The translations under genes and the position numbers were made by a program. Positions 25,753-37,951 of a stretch of 57,522 nt of DNA are shown piece after piece; positions within the stretch are counted from its first letter, which is position 1, and the number at the start of each line of letters is the position of its first letter. The notes under the pieces were generated by a model that made no database searches, was not told where the DNA came from, and saw only the letters and a list, made by a program, of their open reading frames with translations. The DNA comes from Bacteroidales bacterium (GTDB taxonomy: Bacteria; Bacteroidota; Bacteroidia; Bacteroidales; P3): contig JAGBOF010000004.1 in assembly GCA_017633985.1 (NCBI GenBank), positions 1 through 57,522 on the forward strand. The letters are read 5' to 3'.

Positions 25753-25833
25753 CGGGAGACCGAAAAGTCTCCCGAAAGAACGAATTAAACAAACTAATTA
25801 TATTTATGATGAGTAAATAAATTAGTCAAAACT
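25753..25833 (-). terminator. Conserved 3' UTR and terminator hairpin of the minus-strand T9SS cargo gene
   Basis: On the minus strand the stop codon is followed by a segment (25833-25775) nearly identical to the 3' UTR of the plus-strand paralogue (37950-38010), including a perfect 27-base match. It ends in an 8-bp hairpin CGGGAGAC/GTCTCCCG (25753-25774). The hairpin sequence itself differs from the paralogue's terminator. Confidence 0.7.
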
Positions 25834-28145
25834 TATTTAATAACTATTTTACCAGATTTGCTTCCCAAAGCGGTTGTTACCTTATAAATATAGACGCCTG
25901 AAGGTTGGTTGAAGTCAAATTGATGCCAATCGGAGTTAATGTCCTTGTTATAAACCGTCATGCCCAAAGTATTAATCATTTTTACATTCATCAGATTGTA
26001 ACCTTTTATTTGTATGCGGTTGTTGTCGTTTATAACGGAAACATTAACTTCCGATGCATCATTATCTATTGCCGATTTCTTTTCGGCGAATGCTATGACA
26101 AATCTGCCTTCGTTTTCGCCTTCATCTGCAGTAAAGCGGTAGGAAGTACCGTCAGAAACCAACGTCATATTGCCGTAAGTCAAATCTTTGATGTAAACGT
26201 CAATTCCTTCGGGTACATTACCGACAGTAAAATCAGTTTCTACGCTTTTTTCTGTATGGAAATTAACAGGAACTTCATAAGGCAGTGATTTAAACTCGTT
26301 TTTAAGTATTTTTCTTTGCTCTACAACGAAATAAGGTTCTGCATTGCCGTTATCTTTCGAAGAAAGAAGTATAAAAGCATCCTTCTTGTCAAAACCGTTT
26401 TCCGCTTTGTCATTCATTCTTGCGTAAACGGTGTTTTCATTACCGCCTGCCGTGCATGTAAAAGTCATCAAAGAGTTGTCAAGACTGCTTTTCTTTGCTG
26501 CACTTTCATATTCGGTAGGTTTGCTGAAGGTAAATGTTTTTTCGCCTTTGTCGGCAAATGCGACCATAAAGCCTTGTCCCGGTTTGATTGTAAGGTCTGT
26601 GTTTTTAATATTGTCAGACCATCCGTCGTTGTATACATATACTGCTTCGCCTTGCATGTCTTTTGCCAGTTGTGAGGCTTTTAATGCGGCGGTATAAGGG
26701 TTTGCCAGTGCCATCCAGTAGCCTTCGTTGGTTTTGTCGCCCGATAATGTTTTTGTTACGCTGATAGTGTTGTCCGTAAATATGTTTCCGTTTACGGCAA
26801 GTGTTATTTTCTCACCTTTAGAGGCTGCTTCACCCTCAAGAGACTTGTCTTCGGGTTTTGCATCAAACGGCCAAATGAAATAACCTTCGCCTTTAACCAA
26901 CTGATCACCGTTTTTAATTGACAGATATGTGCCATCACTCCAGTTGCCTGCATCGTAATTGTAAGCAACTACCGCCATATCGTTCGCAGAAGCCTTTTGG
27001 GAATTGTTAAAACGGCTGTCTAATGAAGTTTCATTAACGTCTATTCCCCTTAAATTCCATTGTCCGACGGTAAGTGCATACTCCGAAGTGATTTTGCTTA
27101 ATGTGCCTGAATTGTCAATAAGTTCTCCGCCTTCTTTAAGGGTGACGGATTTGATTGGAGGGTAATCCTCTTCAATACCTTCGCTTGGAATCAAAGCCTG
27201 ATTGTTTATAGATATATTGCCGTTGCCTATTGCCGTTTCCAAATCGGCTTTTGTTACTCTTGTGCTATAGGTTGCACCCTCTGTAAGGGCGAAATGGTCG
27301 AAGTATTTACGGTTTGCGTTTATTTTGGTATTGACTTTTCCGCCTATTTCTTCGGTATTGGAACCTGTTGTGGATAATAGGCATACGTATTTCGCATCGT
27401 CGTCTCCGCTTGAAACGTTGCACCGTGTGTTAGTCTTACCGCTGTTTACCGTTCCCGTGTAATTATAGGCGTAGGTGTTTGTTATTATGATTTTATTTGT
27501 AGAAAGGCTGAAGTAACCTACCAAACCTGCAACATAACACGTCCCCGTACCCGTTGAAGTTATCGTACTGTTTAAAACGGCACAGTTGTTAATGCTTAAA
27601 CTGTTGTTTGTAACGTAACCGATAAGGCTGCCTATTTTTGCATTTGCTTGGGTTGATGTAATAGTAAGGTTTTCCACCCAACAGTTTTCTATTTTCACGT
27701 TAGCGTTTATGCATGTCATTGCCAGCGCACCCGAATTAGCACCTGCTGCGGTGATGTTTGAATTGTACAAACCGAGGTTTTGTACCGTTCCTCCTGCGGC
27801 AAGAGAAGTGAAAAGAGGCTTTGTCATGTTTTTAATCACGAATCCGTCGCCGTCCAATGTGCCGCCGAAGTATAGAATAGGTGAGAAGGTTTGATCTTTT
27901 GCGTCAATGTCGCATGCCAATTTATAAGACCCTTTGTTGGATGCGGATGATGTGCCGTTTAACGCCGACAATTCTTCCATATTATGGATAAGCGTTTGGG
28001 CGTAAAGCGTATTAAAAGAAAGCAACAAACAAAAAACCAAGCCTATGAAAGACTTTAAGAGGCTGTTTTACGAATCCCCCCCCCCGAGAGGTCTTTTAAC
28101 CGATACAAAATCAGTTAATTGTAGATTAAATCTATAAATCATCAT
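25833..28145 (-). CDS. T9SS cargo beta-helix surface protein with G-tract leader; in-frame stop after the tract
   Basis: Reading from ATG 28145, 25 codons (M-M-I-Y-R-F... V-K-R-P-L-G-G-G-D-S) end in TAA at 28068-28070, two codons after a 10-G tract. The same frame then continues open to 25833 with a signal peptide (K-S-F-I-G-L-V-F-C... ending L-Y-A-Q), a parallel beta-helix-like region (I-E-N-C-W-V, I-N-N-C-A-V, I-I-I-T-N-T-Y repeats) and a C-terminal type A sorting domain ending S-G-K-I-V-I-K. The product would be T9SS-secreted and surface-attached. No ATG exists between the TAA and the signal peptide; TTG 28040 would cut off the basic n-region. Expression is therefore uncertain: nonsense-silenced, or in need of readthrough, reversion or a non-standard start. 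It is a paralogue of the gene at 35265. Confidence 0.75.
28076..28085 (-). repeat. Poly-G tract (10 G on the coding strand)
   Basis: Ten consecutive C on the plus strand are ten G in the leader of the T9SS cargo gene, between its ATG and its signal peptide. Homopolymers of this length are prone to slippage. At 10 G the leader is in frame with the downstream gene apart from the TAA at 28068-28070. Confidence 0.9.
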
Positions 28146-35210: not shown

Positions 35211-35218
35211 TAATTTTG
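35211..35218 (+). promoter_or_regulatory. -7 box (TAATTTTG) for the phase-variable T9SS cargo gene
   Basis: TAATTTTG lies 46 bp before ATG 35265; the TTG near 35190 could be the -33 element. The G tract at 35333 is thus well inside the transcript. Confidence 0.6.
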
Positions 35219-35264: not shown

Positions 35265-37951
35265 ATGTTTAGAAAAATGATGACACGTAAAAATGTATTA
35301 ACTGTTGATAAACAGTTAATTAAACGACCGACGGGGGGGGGGGGATTTTAAGAAGTAATCCCGTAAAGACCCTAACATTAATCCTTTTAGGTATATTCCT
35401 TTTACCCAATATAGCCTCCGCACAGCCAAGTTTAAGCGGTTCAGGTACACAAAGCGATCCTTACTTAATACAATCCTACGACGATTTTATCTACTTTGCT
35501 AATTATTGTAACAACAATGCGAACGGCACATTATTAACTGTTCAGATAACTCAGTGGAATTCCGAACAAAATGCTGCTTATTTCTCAATAGAAACAGATA
35601 TTACTTTAACAGGTAGTGAAACATGCTTTCCTATTAAGAATTTTAAGGGAAGAATAAATGGTAACGGACATACTATTTCGGGACTTGTGATAGATAAGGC
35701 AGCAGAAGATAATGTGGCTTTATTTTCTAATCCTGGTTGGAGAGGTAGCACATGGAACGGTTCTACTACGGCTGAACAAGAAAAATATATTTCTGCAATA
35801 GAAGGAATAGGTCTGATAGATCCTGTCATTAAAGGAAAAAATTATGTGGCATGTTTCGTTGATTATTTTTCAGGTACATTGCAATATGTTAAAAATTGCT
35901 ATGCTCAAAATCCTACAATAGAAATGTTGAACGGCGGACAAAAGGGCGGAGGTATAGCAGGTGAAGTAAACGACGGTAATAATGATTTGGCAGATTCAAA
36001 GTCGGGAATAATAGAAAATTGTTACGTTTCCGGAGGTACTCTTACATTTAAATATTCAGGACAGTCTGAAATTATGATAGGCGGAATTGTCGGAGGAGAG
36101 CATTATAAACTTGATAAATGCTTCTCTACGATGAAGATAATTGTCGAAGATTGCCCTTCCGATCAAGATATGGGAGTGTCTCCTATAGCTTATAGACAAG
36201 GATCGAATAGTTATATTGAAGACGCTTTTTATTTGAGTGGAACGATAGAGCCTTCAACTATAAAATTGAATACAGGTTCTTATCCGCAGACAGCAGAAGA
36301 AAAAGCCGCATCAGAAAAAGCAGATATGGAATCTTTGATTGAAGCTGTAACAGCTTTAACAGATGATGACGGAAATCAAATCTTTGTAGAAAATCCTAAA
36401 GATCCTACAGGTGCCCCTATTTTGGCATCACAATTATCCTCCGCTGTTAGTTCAGGTAGTTTGGTTAAGTTGTATATTGATAAATGGAACTTGGTAGGAA
36501 GTTTTGGTAATGTGGCTCAGTTAAACGAAAATACTGACGGTAATGATATGGCTGCAGTAGAGTTTAATTATGATGAAAACAATTGGCAGAACAAGTACAT
36601 GCATGCAACTGACGAAAGCAAAGGAAGTACAAAGATGACACCTGGTTTGGGTTATTTCGTATGGCCGTTTGCATACAAACCATTGACAGAAGAACAGAAC
36701 AATAACGGTTCGGAAAACGGCGATGAAGTAACGACAAATAAGAGTGATAAAATCGGTAAATATACTTATGTGCCGAGAAATGATTCCTTTGTTAAAGACG
36801 GTGATTTCACTGTATCTTTAATAAACAGCAATGACCCTCATTGGTACGCTCTTTCCAATCCTTATACAAAGAATATATATGTAAAACCTTTCGCAGACGA
36901 TAACAGTTTAAACGGAGAGTATGTTTATACGTATGATGTAGATAAAGGATGGAATTATGTAGCAATTAATGCATATGTCAGATATGATACAGTTGTGACT
37001 GTTCCTTATAATCAGTACAATAGTTGGTTGGAAGTAACAACAACGATTAAAAAAGTTGAGTTTGACGGTACTAAAACAACAGAAGAAGAATTATCTACGA
37101 CAAAAGTAACTAGACAAGTTTCTGATGCCGAAAAAGGGACAACTACAACAACAAGTGGAACAACTTATGGATCTTATATTCAGCCTACACAGGGCTTTGT
37201 TATAAGCGGACAAAATGCTTCTTATACAGCTTCGTTTAAATCAACACATGCAAAACAAACGGTAGAGAACTCTTCCAAAGTATCATCGAAAAGTTTGGCA
37301 CAGCCATTAGAAAAGATGGTATTTAGCAGCGTTGCAAACAATACTGAAAGGAAGATGTTGGCTGCACAGACAGAGTTAGCAAGCAACGGTTATGACAACG
37401 GCGATTCATACGTAATGTTATCAACAAACAGAACTGATTATGTTGAACCTTACTTCGTAGTGGAAAATAAGAATCTGTATTCGAATAGATTTAAATCACT
37501 TCCTTACGAGGCAGAGATAAACTTCCATGCAGCAAAACAGAGTGAGACTGAATTCTCTGTAAGCAATGTTCCGCAGGATATGGATGTTTATATTGTTGAT
37601 TTGGCAAAACAAACAGAGACTTTGTTATCTGACGGCAGCACATTCACCTTTACGGCAGAAGAAGGCGAGAATGAGGGCAGATATAAGATAAAATTCATCA
37701 ATAAGAAATCAGGAATTAACGATGTTACCGAAGCTGATGCGAACGTTGTGTCTTACGACCGTAACGTTTCGGTTAGCGGAACAGACTTGAAGAGTGTAAA
37801 AGTGGTGAATATGTTAGGCCTGCAAGTTTACAAGGCGAACATCAACTCCGGCACACACCGTTTTGATTTGGAAGGCGCAGAGGCAGGCACATACGTGGTA
37901 GTAGTTGAGACTGCAAAGGGCACAAAATCACAGAAGATAATAATAAAATAG
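35265..37951 (+). CDS. Predicted phase-variable T9SS cargo surface protein (frame OFF at 12 G)
   Basis: From ATG 35265, 23 codons (M-F-R-K-M-M... L-I-K-R-P-T) run into a 12-G tract and stop at TAA 35348-35350. One frame over, an uninterrupted frame runs from the tract to TAG 37949-37951: signal peptide (V-K-T-L-T-L-I-L-L-G-I-F... ending A-S-A-Q), a GLUG/beta-helix-like region (G-R-I-N-G-N-G-H-T-I-S-G-L, V-K-N-C-Y-A, I-E-N-C-Y-V), and a type A T9SS sorting domain ending S-Q-K-I-I-I-K. The total length of 2687 bases is one short of a multiple of three; 13 G (or 10) would give one frame of about 895 residues. The downstream frame has no ATG before the signal peptide; the first GTG (35687) lies within the mature domain. 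Paralogue of the gene at 25833. Confidence 0.8.
35333..35344 (+). repeat. Poly-G tract (12 G), candidate slipped-strand switch
   Basis: Twelve G between the leader codons K-R-P-T and the signal peptide. At 12 G the ATG frame terminates three codons past the tract; 13 or 10 G joins it to the mature protein. A TTAACTGT/ACAGTTAA stem-loop (35298-35319) lies just upstream. Length calls at such tracts can be inaccurate in assemblies. Confidence 0.9.

Follow-up and report, generated by a model that had tools for sequence, protein, structure and literature searches.

What purpose might a run of twelve guanines serve between the start codon of a bacterial surface protein and its signal peptide? The question is raised by a gene in a 57,522-nt stretch of DNA from a Bacteroidales bacterium (JAGBOF010000004.1, positions 1 to 57,522; hereafter the window), which is contig C3 of a 2.39-Mb genome assembled into 36 contigs (genome G000). 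The nearest matches of its pheT are found in metagenome-assembled genomes of rumen Bacteroidales, the best with 92% identity (RGIG5007). Judging from the sequence of this gene and its relatives, we consider it very likely (probability of about 0.85) that the gene, which encodes a predicted cargo of the type IX secretion system (T9SS), is subject to translational ON/OFF phase variation by slippage within the n-region of its signal peptide, and that it was captured in the OFF state.

The tract itself occupies positions 35333..35344 of the forward strand, on which all features of this gene lie, and begins 68 nt downstream of the A of ATG 35265. The frame of this ATG reads MFRKMMTRKNVLTVDKQLIKRPTGGGGF and ends with GGGGF and a stop at TAA 35349. 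One frame over, 875 codons plus a stop (35324..37951) are open, bounded by TAA 35321-35323 upstream and TAA 37949-37951 downstream. No ATG stands in this frame ahead of the signal peptide, and the first listed start in frame is GTG 35687. The same arithmetic, including the upstream stop and the lack of an ATG, had been laid out in an earlier sequence-only reading and was confirmed by frame reading. Behind the tract, a signal peptide core (KTLTLILLGIFLLPNIASA, 35366..35422) was recognized by eye, also by comparison with relatives, and the C-terminal end (37766..37948) matches the T9SS type A sorting domain TIGR04183 with 36.3 bits (cut-off 23). The related PF18962 scored 25.3 bits, under its cut-off of 27, and all Pfam matches of the protein (sorting domain, DUF6383 and one GLUG motif) were under their cut-offs. 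As the genome also encodes SprA (TIGR04189, 2531 bits), the sorting domain, the signal peptide seen by eye and the secretion machinery of a type A cargo are all present. A beta-helix nature of the protein is plausible; no relevant solved structure was found for it.

The 12-G tract can be regarded as a hypermutable simple repeat in the coding n-region of a T9SS-secreted surface protein. Translation would start at ATG 35265 or, more likely, at the ATGATG at 35277/35280. With a tract length that brings n-region and body into one frame, a normal exported protein would result. In the two other frames the ribosome would stop 4 or 11 nt past the tract, yielding no useful product, as TAA 35349-35351 and TAA 35356-35358 in the 3' flank of the tract (35345..35358) close both off-frames and the third frame reads ILRS. 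Slippage during replication would then generate ON cells and OFF cells, the assembly representing the OFF state. Slippage in this cell population, as well as secretion of the ON product and its function, are what we infer.

The tract is not of chance origin. Runs of G or C in the window are one to five nucleotides long, apart from one of ten and one of twelve, and none of six to nine occurs. Matches to nine consecutive G number six, against a mean of 0.07 and a maximum of two in 100 dinucleotide shuffles. The whole genome of the window contains 15 tracts of nine or more G and three of exactly eight, and 13 other genomes of the genus contain from 0 to 41 tracts each.

We next turn to the relatives of the window gene, whose protein (P0001) was matched in 13 of the 14 genomes of the genus, mostly in its C-terminal part alone. 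Thirty stretches of this family were read. A run of eight or more G was present in seven of them, and in four it lay at the place of the window tract, ahead of the signal peptide, where the sequence-only reading had proposed that such tracts be sought: L182 (9 G) and L191 (11 G) are ON, L190 and L347 (10 G each) are OFF. Together with the window gene (12 G, OFF), two ON and three OFF states are thus represented, and in each of the five a stop is met within 15 nt in either off-frame. ATTTTAA, two purines and AGTA follow the tract in the window gene, L190, L191 and L347; this shared flank encodes ILRS or ILKS in one frame, and the remaining two are closed after F and after DFKK or DFKE. L182 has a different 3' flank with an early stop in both off-frames nevertheless. 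Tracts also appear at other positions in the family: in L346 the signal peptide ends in an 8-G tract (OFF), with a 10-G tract farther upstream, and L194 has a tract of 8 or more G upstream of its promoter-like box. Two tracts per gene, one upstream of a promoter-like box and one in the n-region, were observed in L191 and L347 of genome G003, and in L345 (G009) a 10-G tract lies within the body of the family member, in frame in an open reading frame (ORF) of 1008 codons. Another orthologous secreted protein likewise has a tract in the signal peptide in two species (L007, 9 G; L078, 10 G; both OFF).

Relatives without the tract indicate what the stretch upstream of it is. In L175, L181, L192 (from ATGATG) and L194 (from ATG), the long stretch and the signal peptide run uninterrupted in one ORF; within G003, the tract-less L194 (MRVGNPMKGVFRRKTLL...) matches L347, whose leader frame reads MRVKNPVGGG and whose body frame reads GGGILRSKTLL.... 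Because these relatives run from ATG to signal peptide in a single ORF, the leader (35265..35332) is most plausibly an extended signal-peptide n-region, with the tract inside it. Since several relatives begin at ATGATG (L175, L181, L182, L184, L185 and L192), ATG 35277/35280 is the likelier start of the window gene. Of the architecture proposed earlier, the tract ahead of the signal peptide therefore stands, and the notion of a separate leader, a stretch also present in some tract-less relatives, does not. The window gene hence shows the features of a contingency gene, namely a long homopolymer in the 5' coding region that joins or separates two frames, early stops in both off-frames, and relatives in either state.

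The relatives also bear on a rival explanation, i.e. that the count of 12 G stems from faulty assembly or sequencing and that an intact T9SS gene is constantly expressed. One assembled length in a 36-contig draft, and the known proneness of 12-base homopolymers to error, would fit with this. However, tracts at the same place differ in length and frame across genomes, 15 tracts of nine or more G exist in a genome whose window has no runs of six to nine, and at another true length the tract would still be prone to slippage. We regard an error as the whole explanation as quite improbable. A length difference was encountered in the sister genome G013, where contigs C4 and C7 share a region (119,960 bp aligned, three mismatches, one gap; the base-by-base comparison covered 113 kb, and that there is no further gap follows from the alignment). 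The sole gap is a poly-G tract with 11 versus 12 G, the other two tracts (9 and 11 G) being identical. This tract lies less than 40 bases from the end of one contig, and strain variation and assembly error are indistinguishable here.

Two further explanations concern the level at which the tract acts. Slippage of the polymerase or the ribosome on poly-G could yield a fixed mix of products, which would dampen the gene and not switch it; homopolymers can indeed be slippery for both, as described for poly-A/T (PMC3711429), but the early stops in both off-frames are compatible with such slippage and with a switch alike, and we consider a fixed mix unlikely. Alternatively, the tract might act on transcription, through promoter spacing or attenuation, with the coding change incidental. 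Elsewhere in the genus, 8 of 111 tracts lie upstream of promoter-like boxes and 36 of 111 between a promoter box and a terminator (see below), and the second tracts of L191 and L347 are also situated upstream of promoter-like boxes. At the window gene, though, the candidate promoter, TAATTTTG (35211..35218), which matches the consensus of the Bacteroidota -7 box, TANNTTTG, lies 122 nt ahead of the tract. Beyond 35344 a terminator hairpin was looked for and not found, and the downstream ORF lacks a start codon before the signal peptide. A box of this type also occurs upstream of several tract-less relatives. Attenuation was dropped for the window tract for want of a terminator behind it, and an action on transcription in general appears very improbable here.

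Several observations weigh against translational phase variation of the window gene. Firstly, a tract at this place is missing from 26 of the 30 stretches of the family, and in the tract-less L184 and L185 one ORF leads into the signal peptide with a short n-region. Secondly, the length of 12 G rests on the assembly, and an error in a 12-base homopolymer is possible. Thirdly, MutS is encoded in the window genome and is over the cut-off in 13 of the 14 genomes of the genus; lower slippage rates are therefore to be expected than in bacteria devoid of MutS, and loss of mismatch repair, considered as a cause of tract survival, is unsupported. Finally, the window contains a second tract, not mentioned in the earlier reading, in front of a paralogous gene on the reverse strand. 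Its 10 G (28076..28085, found by run-length counting and shuffles) lie between a leader (MMIYRFNLQLTDFVSVKRPL, 28086..28145, from frame reading) and the body of a T9SS protein of 744 aa (25833..28067), which has 35% identity to the window protein and matches TIGR04183 with 26.7 bits. A stop precedes the body in all three frames, so leader and body are unjoined at every tract length. As assembled, the paralogue is no working two-state switch, owing either to damage beyond the tract or to assembly error. The claim of a stochastic switch of a T9SS protein caught in its OFF state gains support from the ON and OFF relatives, the 11/12 difference in G013, the TIGR04183 match and the presence of SprA.

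How widespread are such tracts, and do they all act in the same way? We sorted 111 tracts from four genomes automatically: all 18 of eight or more G in G000, 39 of the 40 found in G007, 28 in G013 (31 found, three duplicate copies dropped) and 26 of 26 in G005. Twenty were classified as N-terminal coding, several of these calls being doubtful assignments, which also counts against the reading proposed for the window gene; 7 are ON and 13 OFF, close to the one in three ON expected for a freely slipping tract. Eight lie upstream of promoter-like boxes. The commonest class (36 tracts, 21 of them in G007) is placed between a promoter box and a terminator. From these classes it may be proposed that this genus of uncultured rumen Bacteroidales probably runs a genome-wide poly-G contingency system, consisting of signal-peptide frame switches, promoter-upstream tracts and, mostly, leader-peptide attenuators, the last of which would be a separate occurrence of the mechanism described for the pil1 locus of Streptococcus gallolyticus. 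Outside this scheme, or against it, stand 32 of the 111 tracts that fall in no class and 15 in internal or C-terminal coding positions.

At pil1, a leader peptide with GCAGA repeats reaches the terminator or does not (Danne et al. 2014, PMC3894217): leaders in the OFF state stop at least 28 nt upstream of the hairpin, and those in the ON state have their stop within the hairpin or 4 nt short of it. At the attenuator-type loci of the genus, slippage in the tract would similarly decide whether the ribosome reaches and melts the terminator. A TANNTTTG box is present 65-130 nt upstream of 53 of the 111 tracts (shuffles: mean 6.65, maximum 13 in 100). Seven of these 53 lead into long coding frames, and the other 46 are promoter-anchored and non-coding. 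After 36 of the 46, a strong terminator follows, defined as a hairpin plus T-run with dG of -13 or lower, compared with 6 of 276 in dinucleotide shuffles; the remaining 10, without one, do not speak for attenuation. A terminator at the equivalent place accompanies 4 of 35 tract-less promoter-like sites of the window and 8 of 58 from a 120-kb portion of G013; among those with long untranslated regions, it accompanies 1 of 6 and 1 of 19, respectively.

In 32 of the 36 loci, an ORF starting with ATG downstream of the box is open through the tract under a strict rule that tests the codon spanning the tract start (shuffles: mean 13.5, maximum 23 in 200), and in 28 of the 36 it begins at the first ATG (mean 8.5, maximum 18). 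Four loci (L062, L080, L085 and L276) fail the rule, L062 solely because, of its two promoter boxes, the one closer to the tract was taken, and L080 because a stop formed with the first G of the tract closes its leader. Two kinds of frame coexist in 35 of the 36 loci, i.e. i) at least one frame whose stop lies no more than 10 nt ahead of the hairpin or farther downstream, and ii) at least one whose stop lies 20 nt or more upstream of it (shuffles: mean 21.8, maximum 29 in 500); the 10-nt and 20-nt cut-offs were set post hoc, after the stop table and passages of PMC3894217 had been seen, and the shuffles use the same cut-offs. The 36 loci form 13 similarity clusters and are not independent. With one locus taken per cluster, both kinds of frame occur in 12 of 13 (shuffles: mean 7.0, maximum 12 in 1000) and the leader is open in 12 of 13 (mean 4.4, maximum 10 in 1000) under a laxer rule that leaves aside the codon spanning the tract start.

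As assembled, the 32 loci with a leader comprise 24 OFF-like and 8 ON-like states, and a second promoter-like box between hairpin and gene was seen in 1 of 33. Terminator pairs changed on both sides in 4 of 14 cases in one group of four loci and in none in three other groups. Differences between similar leaders are flat over codon positions 1, 2 and 3 (60, 59 and 67, six groups), so that selection on the leader peptides was rejected; what is supported is an open leader frame, not its amino acids. The genes downstream include, by eye, lipoproteins and secreted proteins. Outside the genus, none of the 30 tracts examined (of 74, in seven genomes belonging to different genera and families) combines promoter box, leader ATG and strong hairpin.

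Other features of the tracts were noticed along the way. In the window genome itself, short leader ORFs ending in poly-G are found at L008, L011, L014, L015, L016, L017, L024 and L025. All of these except L008 and L016 have the promoter and the strong terminator; the hairpin of L016 is weaker, and that of L008 was recognized by eye only. Similar leader peptides at L011 (MTNQKLHTNSQNN..., G000), L146 (MNGEKLHTIAQSN..., G013) and L152 (MIEQKLHTSKQNN..., G013) precede unrelated-looking genes, as if a module of promoter, leader and tract moves. Seemingly orthologous tracts, L026 (8 G, G000) and L075 (10 G, G013), mark the C-terminal end of a membrane protein whose gene is directly followed by an ATP-binding one that looks FtsE-like by eye; C-terminal switching is possible there. 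At L055, L059, L061, L064, L067 and L073 (G007 and G005), tracts are found within coding regions or at their beginning, and several of these regions resemble, by eye, glycan or polysaccharide genes. In G007, TAT precedes 22 of 39 tracts and TA follows 25 of 39, a sequence preference at the tract borders.

Switches formed by poly-G tracts early in a coding region are well known, and the closest such systems are the poly-G contingency genes of Helicobacter and Campylobacter. The architecture, earlier thought to be undescribed, is to that extent less new; for T9SS cargo it still appears undescribed, as no account of poly-G switching of such cargo in Bacteroidales was found in the literature searched. 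The contingency genes of H. canadensis are alike in their tracts, which there include some near the 3' end (PMC2823697). By comparison, the present host is a member of Bacteroidales, the product is T9SS cargo, the tract is placed in an extended n-region, and sister species add tracts placed between promoter and terminator in leader ORFs. Phase variation in Bacteroidales is mostly known through DNA inversions. A review on Bacteroides (PMC11868660) likewise deals with ON/OFF surface variation in this order, by inversion; here a simple repeat would slip, and no inversion was seen. The kind of switch is thus known, and the host, the T9SS cargo and the placement in the n-region are, as far as the literature searched shows, new.

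The genus-wide set of attenuators is more surprising than the switch in the window. It is these sister loci, not the window tract, that share with pil1/pil3 the order of promoter, leader ORF containing a repeat prone to slip, terminator and gene, and the presence of one frame stopping well before the hairpin and another reaching it (PMC3894217). Relative to what is described there, they differ in having poly-G instead of GCAGA, in belonging to Bacteroidota, and in number, with 21 loci in G007 against two pilus loci (PMC3894217). The 36 sister loci would accordingly represent phase-variable attenuators of the pil1 type. If this is true, the pil1/pil3 mechanism of one streptococcus would be a recurrent solution, and dozens of natural loci would be available for comparing frame, stop position and terminator. 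For the rumen community, poly-G tracts on T9SS cargo and secreted proteins change how strain variation should be read, because assemblies give one arbitrary state per locus and genes in the OFF state look truncated.
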